Assembly (NCBI GenBank): GCA_017503015.1
Contig: JAFVTX010000070.1
Location: forward strand, 1 to 32,255
Reading direction: 5' to 3'
Length of the DNA: 32,255 bases
Origin: Fibrobacter sp.
Lineage (GTDB): Bacteria > Fibrobacterota > Fibrobacteria > Fibrobacterales > Fibrobacteraceae
The notes beneath the pieces were generated by a model. That model saw nothing but the letters and a program-made list of their open reading frames with translations, searched no databases and was not told the DNA's origin. Of this stretch, positions 27,636-31,941 are shown in pieces (the first letter of the stretch is position 1; the number at the start of each line of letters is the position of its first letter). A program made the position numbers and the translations under genes.

Positions 27636-27676
27636 TTATTTATTTTGGAAGGGATTGCAACTAAGAAGGACTCAAT

Positions 27677-29398
27677 ATGGAAAGCGCAAGAAAAATCGTC
27701 AACCAGTTTCTGAAAGGAAAATTCGAGGACAAGGACCTAAAGAGCGAACTGTATAAGGCCGCCGAAGCCGCCATGGAAGACGGCTGGACCTTTATGGACA
27801 CCTCCTTCCAGATTGGAGGCCTTGCCCGTGAACGCGGCATGGCCGACGACGAAGTGGAACAGATTTTGCGCAGGGCCTTCTCCAGCGAAAAACGTTCTTC
27901 TGAACGGGAAGAAGCAAAGCCCGAACCCCACAGGGAAACCACCCAGGCGGCGGCACCGCCACAGACCACCATCATGCCGGCATTCACCACCAGCATGATT
28001 CCCATGGAACAGATGCTGGCCATGGGTCTTGATACCCAGTCCCTGGAACTGTTGCAGAACTTCAAGATTGACCCCGAAGCCCTGTCTATTCCATGGCCTG
28101 CCGCCGACTGGCGTAAGGACCTGGCCAAGCTTCTGGAAGCAACCTTCGAAGAAGACGAAACCATCGACTTCAAGATTTCGGACACTCCTACCGCCACATC
28201 GGAACTGGTGTCCAACATCGTGGGCCAGGACGATGCCATCAAGAAAATCATGAAGAGCTTGGACAGCCCCGAAGGAGCACTTATCTGCATCAACGCCACC
28301 AAGGGTGGCGAAGACGCCTCCGACGAGAGCTGGAAATATCGCTACGTAATGGTGGACAATCCCAAGATGACGCTAGCCAAGCAGCTGGCCTACTTTAAGG
28401 CGTTGAACCTTCCCTGCGCAGCCCTCATCAACACCGGCGCAAACTCCGTGCAGGCCTGGGTAAAGATTGGAGCCGACAACCAAGAGGAATACGACGAACG
28501 GGTCGATTTCCTGTTCAGCACCCTTGCCTCCCAAGGTTTCCAGGTAGATTCCAGCAACAGAAACCCAAGCATGATGGTCCGCATGCCGGGCGTGCTCCGT
28601 GGCGGAAAGCAGCAGTACTTGATCAGCTTGGAACAGGGTGCCAAGAACTTTGCCGAATGGAAACAGTGGGTGGAATACTCCCTAGACGGCAAGCCCCTCA
28701 TCGAGCTTGCCAGCGACAGCGAAGAGGCCCCGAAAAAAGACGAAGTCTTAATCCAGAACATGCTCCAGGCCGGAGAATTCTTCTTGTTCACCGCTCCCCC
28801 GAAATGCGGGAAGTCCATGGCCCTGATGGACCTGGGACTTTCGCTTTGCTACGGTGAGGAATGGTTCGGAAACGCCACCACCATGAGCGATGTGCTGTTC
28901 ATCAACTTCGAGCTTACCAAGTCCGTGTTCCTGAACCGCCTGTACCTGCTGGCCAACAAACGCGGGCTTCCCGCCAGCACCGGGAACTTCGGCTTCTTGA
29001 ATCTGCGAGGAGTCGCCCTTTCTCCGCTGGAGACGGCACAGCTTATCGCAAAGCGCGTAGAAGGCGCGAAGAAGATGGGAAACCACAATTACCGTACCAT
29101 CGTCATCGACCCCATTTCGGCGGTGTTCCACAACCCGAAAGCCATGCGCATTACCGGTGCCCCCCACCAGATTCTGATGCAGATGGTGGACACCATCATC
29201 GCCCTCACGGGCTGTGCCGTAGTGGCCGCCTGCAACAATGACGAATACCCCTACCTGGAATCCCGTGCCGACAGCGTGCTGAAACTCACGCCGGTAGAAG
29301 GCGGCCTGAACCAGTTCCAGATCAACGGCTCCTTCAGGGAATTCCCGAAACTCCTGGCTAGGGACTGCTCCTGGATCTATCCGAGATTCTGGGTGTAA
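27677..29398 (+). CDS. Primase-like domain fused to RepA/RadA-type AAA ATPase, orphan
   Basis: 573 residues. A helical N-terminal domain (about 1-75) resembles primase C-terminal (PriCT-like) bundles. A low-complexity linker follows. Residues about 190-330 align with archaeo-eukaryotic primase (AEP)-like domains found in plasmid and phage replication proteins: YRYVMVDNP (D227), TGANSVQAWVKI (Q259 where the family has His), and D291...RNPSMMVRMPG (302-305). The C-terminal half is a RepA-like hexameric helicase ATPase with Walker A APPKCGKS (373-380), LFINFELTKSVFLNRLY, and Walker B IVIDP (D478). It is embedded in a chromosomal run of RNA-modification genes with good ribosome binding site AGAAGGA, not in a phage or plasmid. 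The primase half looks degenerate; the ATPase looks intact. Confidence 0.75.
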   Translation: MESARKIVNQFLKGKFEDKDLKSELYKAAEAAMEDGWTFMDTSFQIGGLARERGMADDEVEQILRRAFSSEKRSSEREEAKPEPHRETTQAAAPPQTTIMPAFTTSMIPMEQMLAMGLDTQSLELLQNFKIDPEALSIPWPAADWRKDLAKLLEATFEEDETIDFKISDTPTATSELVSNIVGQDDAIKKIMKSLDSPEGALICINATKGGEDASDESWKYRYVMVDNPKMTLAKQLAYFKALNLPCAALINTGANSVQAWVKIGADNQEEYDERVDFLFSTLASQGFQVDSSNRNPSMMVRMPGVLRGGKQQYLISLEQGAKNFAEWKQWVEYSLDGKPLIELASDSEEAPKKDEVLIQNMLQAGEFFLFTAPPKCGKSMALMDLGLSLCYGEEWFGNATTMSDVLFINFELTKSVFLNRLYLLANKRGLPASTGNFGFLNLRGVALSPLETAQLIAKRVEGAKKMGNHNYRTIVIDPISAVFHNPKAMRITGAPHQILMQMVDTIIALTGCAVVAACNNDEYPYLESRADSVLKLTPVEGGLNQFQINGSFREFPKLLARDCSWIYPRFWV

Positions 29399-29460: not shown

Positions 29461-29469
29461 AGGTAAGTG

Positions 29470-30729
29470 ATGAATCGTTTTACAAGAAAAAGTGTATCCA
29501 AAAACCATCAGCAAAAGCAAGAGCCTTCCAAGGTCGAAAAGCCAATTGTCCGCAGGGCGGCAAGTTTTGAAGACATCCAGAAGCAGTTCAGTTCCTGGAC
29601 TAGCGACATGAGAATCCCCGGAAAAGTCCAGGCCTGGTTTACCGCAGAGGCAAAGCCCGAAAATTCCGACTGGAAAATCTACAACAAGCTCATAAACGGT
29701 CACGAAAGCCTGCTGTTGGATGCTCCCGCAAAGGGGATGGACACTCCCGAAGTTGTCACGCAGATTTTTGAACAAATCAAGAAAGAACACCTGCGCAATT
29801 TCCGCAAGGCCATCCGAACCATTTGGTTCAGGGCCTGCGGCAATGGAAACTTCGCCCTAGTAGTGCAGGCAAACCTCCGCGGCAAAAATTCCGCCCACGA
29901 ATGCAAGACCTTCGTTGACTTTCTGGAGCGTTCCTGCCCCGAAATCATCAGCTGCCACCAAATCCAGTGCCAGCCCTTTGTGCCCTTTGACCCCACCGTA
30001 CATCAAAGCACCCGCATCGAGTCCAGGTGCAATTTCGGCAAGGACTTTATGCCTCTAGGCGATTCCGGCTTCTGCATGCACGTGCTGGACTGGGCCCCCC
30101 GCATCAAGGACGCCTGGCTAAAGCTCCCGGAAAAAATAGCAAGCGCCATCCACCCTGCAAAAGGCGACAAGTTCTTTGAATTCTACTCGGGTTCGAGTTT
30201 TGTGGCCGCCTCCCTTTCCCCGCTGTTTGCCCAAGTAGAAAGCCAGGACTGCCGCGAAACATCCATGGAATCCTGCCGCCAGAACAGCCGCCTCGCCCCG
30301 CAAGACAACATGCGGTTCCATAGGGGGTTCTTTGACCCGGGATTTCTCACCAAGTTCTTTTCCAAGTCCGAAAATGACGGGCGGTGGACATTCTATTTCA
30401 ACCTGCCCGAAGGAGAACCCCTGCCGGCAGGTTCCGTCGAAACCATCGCCGGGGTCAGGCCGGAGCGAATCTTGATCGAAACTGCCGACCTGGAACAGGC
30501 CCAAAAAATCATCAAGCAGTTCAGGAACCAGGGGTACGTCCTTCGCAAATCCATTCCTCTCTACCTGGAACCCGGCCGTGGGAAATTCGAAATTTTGGCC
30601 ATTTTTGTGCCGGACCGGGTGGGGCTTCTTGGAGGAAAAAGGCAAAAACCTGCCCAAAATCCCATAAAACCCGCCCATAAAACACTTTTTGTGCAAAAAG
30701 CCCCTACTTTTAGGCAAAGAAAAGATTAA
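29470..30729 (+). CDS. TrmA/RlmD-family paralogue with catalytic motifs missing
   Basis: 419 residues from ATG 29470 (the GTG codon before it is in frame). The layout follows the TrmA/RumA uracil-5-methyltransferases: RNA-binding N-terminal half, then a Rossmann core with SAM loop-like FFEFYSGSSFVAASL (about 233-247) and an acidic strand end QVESQD. The motif FFQ-N is replaced by FCMHVLD, DPPR by NLPEGE (about 311-316), and the catalytic-Cys segment VSCNP.TLARD by LIETADLEQAQK. The C-terminus extends into a basic tail (GGKRQKPAQNPIKPAHK) that could bind RNA. The frame is intact and the codons look normal, so it is a maintained pseudoenzyme candidate rather than a pseudogene. It follows the primase-like ATPase. 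Confidence 0.72.
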   Translation: MNRFTRKSVSKNHQQKQEPSKVEKPIVRRAASFEDIQKQFSSWTSDMRIPGKVQAWFTAEAKPENSDWKIYNKLINGHESLLLDAPAKGMDTPEVVTQIFEQIKKEHLRNFRKAIRTIWFRACGNGNFALVVQANLRGKNSAHECKTFVDFLERSCPEIISCHQIQCQPFVPFDPTVHQSTRIESRCNFGKDFMPLGDSGFCMHVLDWAPRIKDAWLKLPEKIASAIHPAKGDKFFEFYSGSSFVAASLSPLFAQVESQDCRETSMESCRQNSRLAPQDNMRFHRGFFDPGFLTKFFSKSENDGRWTFYFNLPEGEPLPAGSVETIAGVRPERILIETADLEQAQKIIKQFRNQGYVLRKSIPLYLEPGRGKFEILAIFVPDRVGLLGGKRQKPAQNPIKPAHKTLFVQKAPTFRQRKD

Positions 30730-30774: not shown

Positions 30775-31941
30775 ATGGGATTTTTGAAAACTGCGACTTT
30801 GTGCCTCGGTCTGGGAGTGCTGGTTGCGTCTGCCTATATCGTCAAGGAAGGCGACACCCTCTGGGACCTGAGTGACGAATTCCTGAACGACCCCTTCGCC
30901 TGGCCCGACCTGTGGGAAAACAACAGGCATATCCAGGACCCCCACTGGATTTATCCAGGTGACTCCATCTACTTCGGGGACAGCACCCGAGAAGAACCTG
31001 TAGCGATCCCCACCACCCAGAACCGCTACCCTTGCGGCGGCGCCATCGCCGACACCAACCTCCCTAAGGGCGTTTCCGCCGTAGGTTGCGACCAAGGCGA
31101 TGCACGGAACGGCGACTTCGAAAACATGTTGGGTGACCTGCGCAACCGCGACAAGCGCCCCAAGAAAACAAAAAAAGACGATGTATACTATTACAATAAA
31201 CGTCCCGCACCCAAGATTTTTAATGGTTATTACCAGATTCTCGCCCCAGAGATTTACGATGTTGACGCCCTGAAAAAAGACGAAACATTCTTTTCTATCC
31301 GCTCTGGAGAACGCAAAGAACCGATTCTCCATATTCCTGAAATGGAAGTGGTGGTTGGAGTCGGAAAAAAGACCGACATCAAGGCAAAAAAAGGTGATCT
31401 TGTGGAGATTCTTGACGCCCGGGCCATCGAGGTTCCCGGCACTCACGGAAAGAGTTTTGACACCTACGCCATGCTCAGACTTTCGGGTATTGCAAAAATC
31501 ACAGCCGTTGGCGACACACTGTCCCGCGCCCAAATTGTGCAAAGCTTCAGAGAAATCAAGATCAACCAGTCTAAGGCCCGCATGAAAAAACAGCCCAAGG
31601 TTTTAGATGTAAAAGGTTACGGCAAAGAACAGGAAGCCGACATTGCGGAAATGGCCACCATACGTTACGCCATGGATCCCATGTTGATTATTGGAGCATA
31701 TTCTTATGTACTCATCGACAAGGGTAAAGAAGACAAATTCAAAACCGGCGATGCCATTGCCATCTGGGAAGAAGACAAGTCAGACGAAAGCATTCCGCCT
31801 CGACTCCTAGGACGGGGTATCATTGCCCGAGCTGCAGATCACGAAGCCGCCGTACTAATACGCGAAATCTATTCCAACAACCGCCGTGTGGAAATGGGAC
31901 ACAAAGTTTCCGTCACCCATAGAGCACAATTAGCCAAGTGA
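30775..31941 (+). CDS. Secreted LysM-domain protein
   Basis: 388 residues. Signal peptide (about 1-19, ending LVASA) is followed at once by one LysM peptidoglycan-binding domain (about 20-67: YIVKEGDTLWDLSDEFLNDPFAWPDLWENNRHIQDPHWIYPGDSIYF). A basic linker (KRPKKTKKDD) and a large mixed domain (about 140-388) of unknown type follow, similar in layout to LysM proteins that are fused to OmpA-like or beta-rich domains in FCB bacteria. It probably anchors to peptidoglycan in the periplasm. The start follows CAAGGATTACT (ribosome binding site AAGGA, spacing 7). A small membrane peptide gene overlaps its stop. Confidence 0.85.
   Translation: MGFLKTATLCLGLGVLVASAYIVKEGDTLWDLSDEFLNDPFAWPDLWENNRHIQDPHWIYPGDSIYFGDSTREEPVAIPTTQNRYPCGGAIADTNLPKGVSAVGCDQGDARNGDFENMLGDLRNRDKRPKKTKKDDVYYYNKRPAPKIFNGYYQILAPEIYDVDALKKDETFFSIRSGERKEPILHIPEMEVVVGVGKKTDIKAKKGDLVEILDARAIEVPGTHGKSFDTYAMLRLSGIAKITAVGDTLSRAQIVQSFREIKINQSKARMKKQPKVLDVKGYGKEQEADIAEMATIRYAMDPMLIIGAYSYVLIDKGKEDKFKTGDAIAIWEEDKSDESIPPRLLGRGIIARAADHEAAVLIREIYSNNRRVEMGHKVSVTHRAQLAK

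Follow-up and report, generated by a model that had tools for sequence, protein, structure and literature searches.

We describe here a gene, PRIM, from a stretch of 32,255 nucleotides of Fibrobacter DNA (‘the window’), and argue that it is a phage gene that a gut-dwelling order of bacteria has taken over. PRIM belongs to the PHROG_2597 lineage of phage primase–helicases, judging from a profile match that spans both of its domains, and very likely was domesticated from a phage-type protein and fixed in the ancestor of the Fibrobacterales. Judging from its altered active site, it very probably no longer primes. On balance, we favor the view that it is now a non-priming, ATP-binding and nucleic-acid-binding factor, working on a logic like that of Twinkle. 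The features of the gene and of its neighbors are listed in Table 1.

Table 1. Features of PRIM and of the genes that follow it (window positions; residues are those of PRIM)
Feature	Position	Strand	Evidence
RBS-like AAGAAGGA, before ATG at 27677	27663..27670	+	sequence
PRIM, AEP-like/RepA-type fusion, 573 aa	27677..29398	+	PHROG_2597, AAA_25, hhalign with phage homologues
N-terminal four-helix region, residues 1-76	27677..27904	+	structure model
AEP-like domain, residues 136-345	28082..28711	+	phrog_2597 match of the domain by itself, E 9e-46; motif spacing as in S-2L PrimPol (6ZP9)
Motif I, VDNPKM; D227 retained as first acid, P229 in place of the second (Asp in phages)	28352..28369	+	alignments
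Motif II, TGANSVQ; N256 in place of phage K, Q259 in place of phage H	28433..28453	+	alignments
Motif III, D291 to R302, 11 residues, as D146-R157 in 6ZP9	28547..28582	+	alignments
RepA-type RecA-fold ATPase, residues 346-573	28712..29395	+	model match to RSF1010 RepA (1g8y): Z 20.8, 219 residues, 3.1 Å
Walker A, APPKCGKS, residues 373-380	28793..28816	+	K379 invariant in orthologues and phages
Motif-1a catalytic Glu, E412	28910..28912	+	27 E, 4 D, 1 N of 32
Walker B, D478	29108..29110	+	alignments
Site without the phage/RepA motif-3 His and HHxSKG block, residues 517-530, AACNNDEYPYLESR	29225..29266	+	alignments
TrmA/RlmCD-fold protein that has lost DPPR and the catalytic Cys	29467..30729	+	profile match 5xj1, E 1e-12; structure match 5zq0, Z 29.6, 341 residues, 3.1 Å
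LysM-domain protein, third gene of block	30775..31941	+	Pfam LysM, 6e-8; conserved order
Start of membrane histidine kinase, cut by window/contig end	32068..32255	+	frame resembles kinase N-terminus of a related locus (L060)

The PRIM gene and its relatives

Ahead of PRIM lies an RBS-like sequence, in line with the ribosome-binding site proposed in a preliminary description of the window, and the GC content of the gene is near that of its surroundings (0.559 versus 0.541). The residues singled out in that description (D227, Q259, D291, RMPG at 302-305, APPKCGKS at 373-380 and D478) all lie where it placed them. In PHROGs, the protein falls in family 2597, ‘DNA primase’ (E 8e-72, residues 173-485); its sole Pfam match is AAA_25 (residues 345-517, E 5e-19). 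NCBIfam yielded no match, phmmer against PDB sequences yielded chance matches only, and a literature search found no paper joining Fibrobacter with a primase of this type. When 13 Fibrobacterales proteins were compared with 7 phage-type proteins by hhalign, the match ran from residue 145 to 517 (E 3.5e-60). The phage homologues are ~30–34% identical to PRIM over residues 114-521. They come from Faecalibacterium phage FP_Lugh (AUV56592), Streptococcus Javan phages, Enterococcus EFC-1, Bacillus BCJA1c, and phages of Paenibacillus and Flavonifractor, and their genes sit among replication and recombination genes (e.g. helicase, SSB and RusA). Residues 1-76 of PRIM occupy the position of the phage PriCT-2 domain, for which domain searches of PRIM detected no match; PriCT_2 was matched in 31 members of the joint alignment, the number of its phage members. 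The structure model of the whole protein has a pLDDT of 81 and a pTM of 0.44, with the arrangement of the domains uncertain.

Among 168 Fibrobacterota genomes searched, PRIM is present in all 80 of its genus, in 15 further genomes of its family (f1) and in 2 of a sister family (f2). It occurs in most of its family, and the PHROG search agrees. A scan of 84,980 species genomes found 72 loci, all from Fibrobacterota (their titles read Fibrobacter, Fibrobacterales, Fibrobacteraceae, Fibrobacteria or Fibrobacteres), and none in other phyla; viral_contigs, scanned with the chromosomal alignment, held no relative. PRIM was not found in 12 g10 genomes and one g8 genome. Since g10 and g8 nest within the family in a neighbor-gene tree, with moderate support (88/77), they have likely lost it. 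In an unrooted tree, a single, fully supported branch parts the Fibrobacterales proteins from 23 phage-type proteins. The gene is single-copy and keeps one stable locus. It had been called chromosomal, without mobile neighbors, and its vertical, order-wide conservation agrees with this; its homologues are not restricted to prophages. That the transfer went from phage to host we infer because the host range is confined and the motifs are broken.

Two kinds of related frame occur apart from the PRIM locus. An intact, 744-aa phage-type primase–helicase is encoded, beside a helicase-like gene, on a contig (G106:C64; L079, 1482-3716) that was binned with one of the genomes of this genus; the contig may be a Fibrobacter phage or contamination. 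Genomes G082 and G160 have ATPase-only, RepA-like ORFs of ~360 aa (L080, 7666-8739; L081, 2742-3842) that are kin to the ATPase half only.

Neighboring genes and host replication genes

The genes 5′ of PRIM vary. The conserved block lies downstream, with PRIM first, and the order PRIM, TrmA-like, LysM, histidine kinase, response regulator recurs in 65 of the 72 loci; the remainder are at contig ends, on short contigs or in f2. The upstream run of RNA-modification genes in which PRIM had been placed forms no conserved neighborhood. No shared regulatory motif was evident by eye in the upstream sequences inspected.

The second gene of the block encodes a pseudoenzyme. At its catalytic Cys position, f1 proteins have S, G, A, T, R or P, and never Cys. 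Homologues from f3, another family of the class (open frames of 523-736 aa; L246-L249), keep both DPPR and the catalytic Cys, and the loss of activity can be placed on the tree: it occurred in the Fibrobacterales. The TrmA-like proteins of g10 and g8, where no PRIM was found, also lack the Cys, so the loss is not tied to PRIM. In four genomes (G113, G159, G160 and G161), the match contains in-frame stops, through assembly error, frameshift or real loss. Without PRIM, the LysM and kinase genes adjoin each other in g10, as they do in f2 and one f3 genome, there joined by the response regulator (L245, L248, L242 and L243). Conserved beyond the order, this pair is older than its association with PRIM.

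Could PRIM and the TrmA-like pseudoenzyme together sense RNA or nucleic acid as a single complex, one that perhaps feeds the LysM and two-component genes? The constancy of the five-gene block suggests so, as does the finding that both proteins have shed catalytic residues and retained their folds. Yet the pseudo-TrmA occurs without PRIM in g10 and g8, the two genes are unlinked in f2, and the gap between them, never closed by a fusion, ranges from -34 to 153 bp. We judge such a complex unlikely. Of the partnership suggested at the outset, then, the pseudoenzyme stands, and so does its linkage, seen in every f1 locus with enough flank; an obligatory bond is not supported.

DnaG, DnaB and RadA are all encoded in the same genome as PRIM, which is thus not the replicative primase or helicase. 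Replacement of RadA by PRIM was considered and rejected, RadA being present with and without it. A 634-aa frame elsewhere in this genome (G000:C52, 10204-11739) has weak DnaG and DnaB matches and looks like a fused DnaG-like/DnaB-like protein.

The AEP-like domain and its altered active site

We call residues 136-345 AEP-like on the strength of motif spacing, phage homology and weak profile matches. The only PDB chain matched by the phage AEP profile is 6ZP9, the AEP domain of S-2L PrimPol, at an E of 1.6 that is not significant alone. The alignment pairs FDTTNRNPSRVMRLAG with D..NRNPS...RMPG of the PRIM family, and the spacing within each motif is identical in the two. DNA_primase_S matched 10 of 32 phage AEP pieces, weakly; hhalign found no match between the AEP part and Prim-Pol sequences of Fibrobacterota, of which eight were used, few enough to make this a weak test; and a PDB fold search with the whole model returned a list filled by RecA-fold (ATPase) entries. 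The functional residues of S-2L PrimPol are E85, D87, T112, K115, H118, D146 and R157 (PMC8065100), which, mapped by hand, correspond to PRIM positions 227, 229, 253, 256, 259, 291 and 302.

At positions 227, 229, 256, 259, 291 and 302, the phage homologues (n = 31) have, invariantly, E, D, K, H, D and R. The f1 proteins (n = 32) have D (1 E), P (1 N), N, Q, D (6 N/S/E) and an invariant R, and the f2 proteins (n = 2) have E, R/K, D/A, Q, E and A. The second motif-I metal ligand and the motif-II Lys are gone from every Fibrobacterales copy examined, and the fixed losses come to one metal ligand and two triphosphate contacts. In a wider set, Q259 is found in 64 of 64 orthologues (62 + 2), so that the His-to-Gln change noticed earlier is fixed in the order; the phage relatives keep His.

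The change had been read as the mark of a dead primase, for which there is better evidence. Gln is the usual motif-II residue of the active PolpTN2 family (PMC5862659), and so its presence alone is no proof of inactivity. The lost motif-I acid is the stronger sign. An active AEP requires three metal-binding acids (motif I hhhDxD/E and motif III D), and PRIM lacks the second of motif I. All three are described as crucial if an AEP is to polymerize or prime (PMC8065100), and in another AEP an AxA catalytic mutation abolishes activity (PMC8211822). Loss of the ligand very probably marks the PRIM site as inactive. If PRIM were still a primase–polymerase, with Gln serving as in PolpTN2, some other residue would have to replace the missing ligand. 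S257, present in 31 of the 32 f1 proteins, is a conceivable one: in S-2L PrimPol, a Ser beside the motif-II Lys has been proposed as a stand-in for the shifted D87 (PMC8065100). The strong conservation of the AEP core and the retention of R302 and, mostly, of D291 point the same way. But the second acid is Pro in 31 of 32 f1 proteins, the motif-II Lys is Asn in all 32, and even the motif-III Asp gives way to N, E or S in some orthologues and to Glu in f2. Continued activity is, we think, quite unlikely.

The RepA-type ATPase domain

The ATPase had been described as intact, and this needs correction. All orthologues have K379 and D478, and most have E412. The motif-3 His and the HHxSKG next to it, which do not vary among 31 phage homologues, have been replaced or deleted; the phage HHH-S-K positions read C/N/N-D-E in PRIM proteins. 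Of the features of a RepA-type helicase, the Walker A Lys, motif-1a Glu and Walker B Asp are thus present, and the motif-3 His—its role is described in PMC8965321—and the DNA loop are absent. Because the Walker motifs are kept and the motif-3 segment is not, PRIM likely binds ATP, and RepA-style DNA unwinding has very probably been lost. The arginine finger might be R530 (53/62) or R554, the alignment being ambiguous at the deletion. The idea of a non-catalytic primase coupled to a helicase survives in its first half, a pseudo-primase joined to a RepA-type ATPase; the second half is weakened by the missing motif-3 segment.

Selection

Compared with close relatives, PRIM has a dN/dS of 0.026-0.040, with both domains constrained. 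The AEP core (residues 216-320) is the most conserved large region, with 37% of its positions invariant versus 15% in the ATPase. ‘Degenerate’, the earlier term for the primase half, is misleading. Seven sites in the core are constant within the Fibrobacterales and within the phages, and differ between them; four of the seven are motif residues 227, 229, 256 and 259. This looks like re-specification rather than decay.

An inactive copy might also serve as an anti-phage decoy, poisoning the replisome of phages with the intact protein, of which the 744-aa homologue in one same-genus genome is an example. The interaction surfaces of a decoy should diverge, however, and PRIM is universal in the genus and single-copy, with a dN/dS of ~0.03, at one stable locus. 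A PADLOC defense search gave marginal matches only, none of them convincing. We regard the decoy as highly improbable. Phage-type ancestry and lost motifs notwithstanding, a prophage remnant or decaying pseudogene can be rejected with near certainty on order-wide conservation and dN/dS, the frame being intact in nearly all genomes, under strong purifying selection, without mobile neighbors and confined to a single clade.

Proposed function and significance

Domestication, as we picture it, would have begun with the fixation of a phage-type primase–helicase in the ancestor of the Fibrobacterales. Priming would then have been lost and, very probably, RepA-type unwinding with it. What is left may be an ATP-binding switch, probably oligomeric, in the form of a RecA-fold ring, to which the ex-primase domain would be coupled as a module that binds nucleic acid or a nucleotide. 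We offer this mechanism tentatively. The likeliest task would be an accessory one, in the handling of chromosomal nucleic acid. A bolder version, which we think rather unlikely, takes the near-fixed D227, P229, N256 and Q259 as a re-specified primase pocket: an order-specific nucleotide or nucleic-acid sensor that would drive the ATP-dependent ring, and act with the TrmA-like pseudoenzyme, within a block of five genes, among them those of an envelope two-component system.

Where AEPs of the PrimPol-PV1 group occur on bacterial chromosomes, integrated mobile elements have been identified as their source (PMC5862659). PRIM would be a phage-type primase–helicase that a whole bacterial order has fixed among its core genes, at the cost of priming, and so a bacterial counterpart of the loss of priming in Twinkle, with a non-homologous primase fold. 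Because its altered pocket is so tightly conserved, the idea of a new ligand or role can be put directly to the test.

Comparison with known systems

The closest relatives of PRIM are the phage ‘DNA primases’ of PHROG_2597 (e.g. FP_Lugh AUV56592, EFC-1 primase2 and BCJA1c gp22), in which, as in PRIM, an AEP-like domain is followed by an AAA_25/RepA ATPase. In addition to PriCT-2, E-x-D, K-S-x-H and HHxSKG, the phage proteins have an extension at the C-terminus that gives HTH-like matches; in PRIM, all of these are absent or changed. With the AEP domain of S-2L PrimPol (6ZP9), PRIM shares motif order, spacing and the NRNPS motif, but the equivalents of D87, K115 and H118 are replaced. With RSF1010 RepA (1g8y), it shares the fold, Walker A and B, and motif 1a, but not the motif-3 His and SKG loop. 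The product of the neighboring gene stands in a similar relation to the RlmCD/RumA/TrmA m5U methyltransferases, having their fold (Z 25-30) without their catalytic Cys and DPPR. Vertebrate mitochondrial Twinkle, finally, is likewise a phage-like primase–helicase with a non-catalytic primase domain, and this N-terminal domain helps to stabilize the hexamer and probably to capture DNA (PMC9723800). Its primase part is not homologous to that of PRIM, being TOPRIM rather than AEP, and its helicase is active and serves as the replicative helicase of the organelle.
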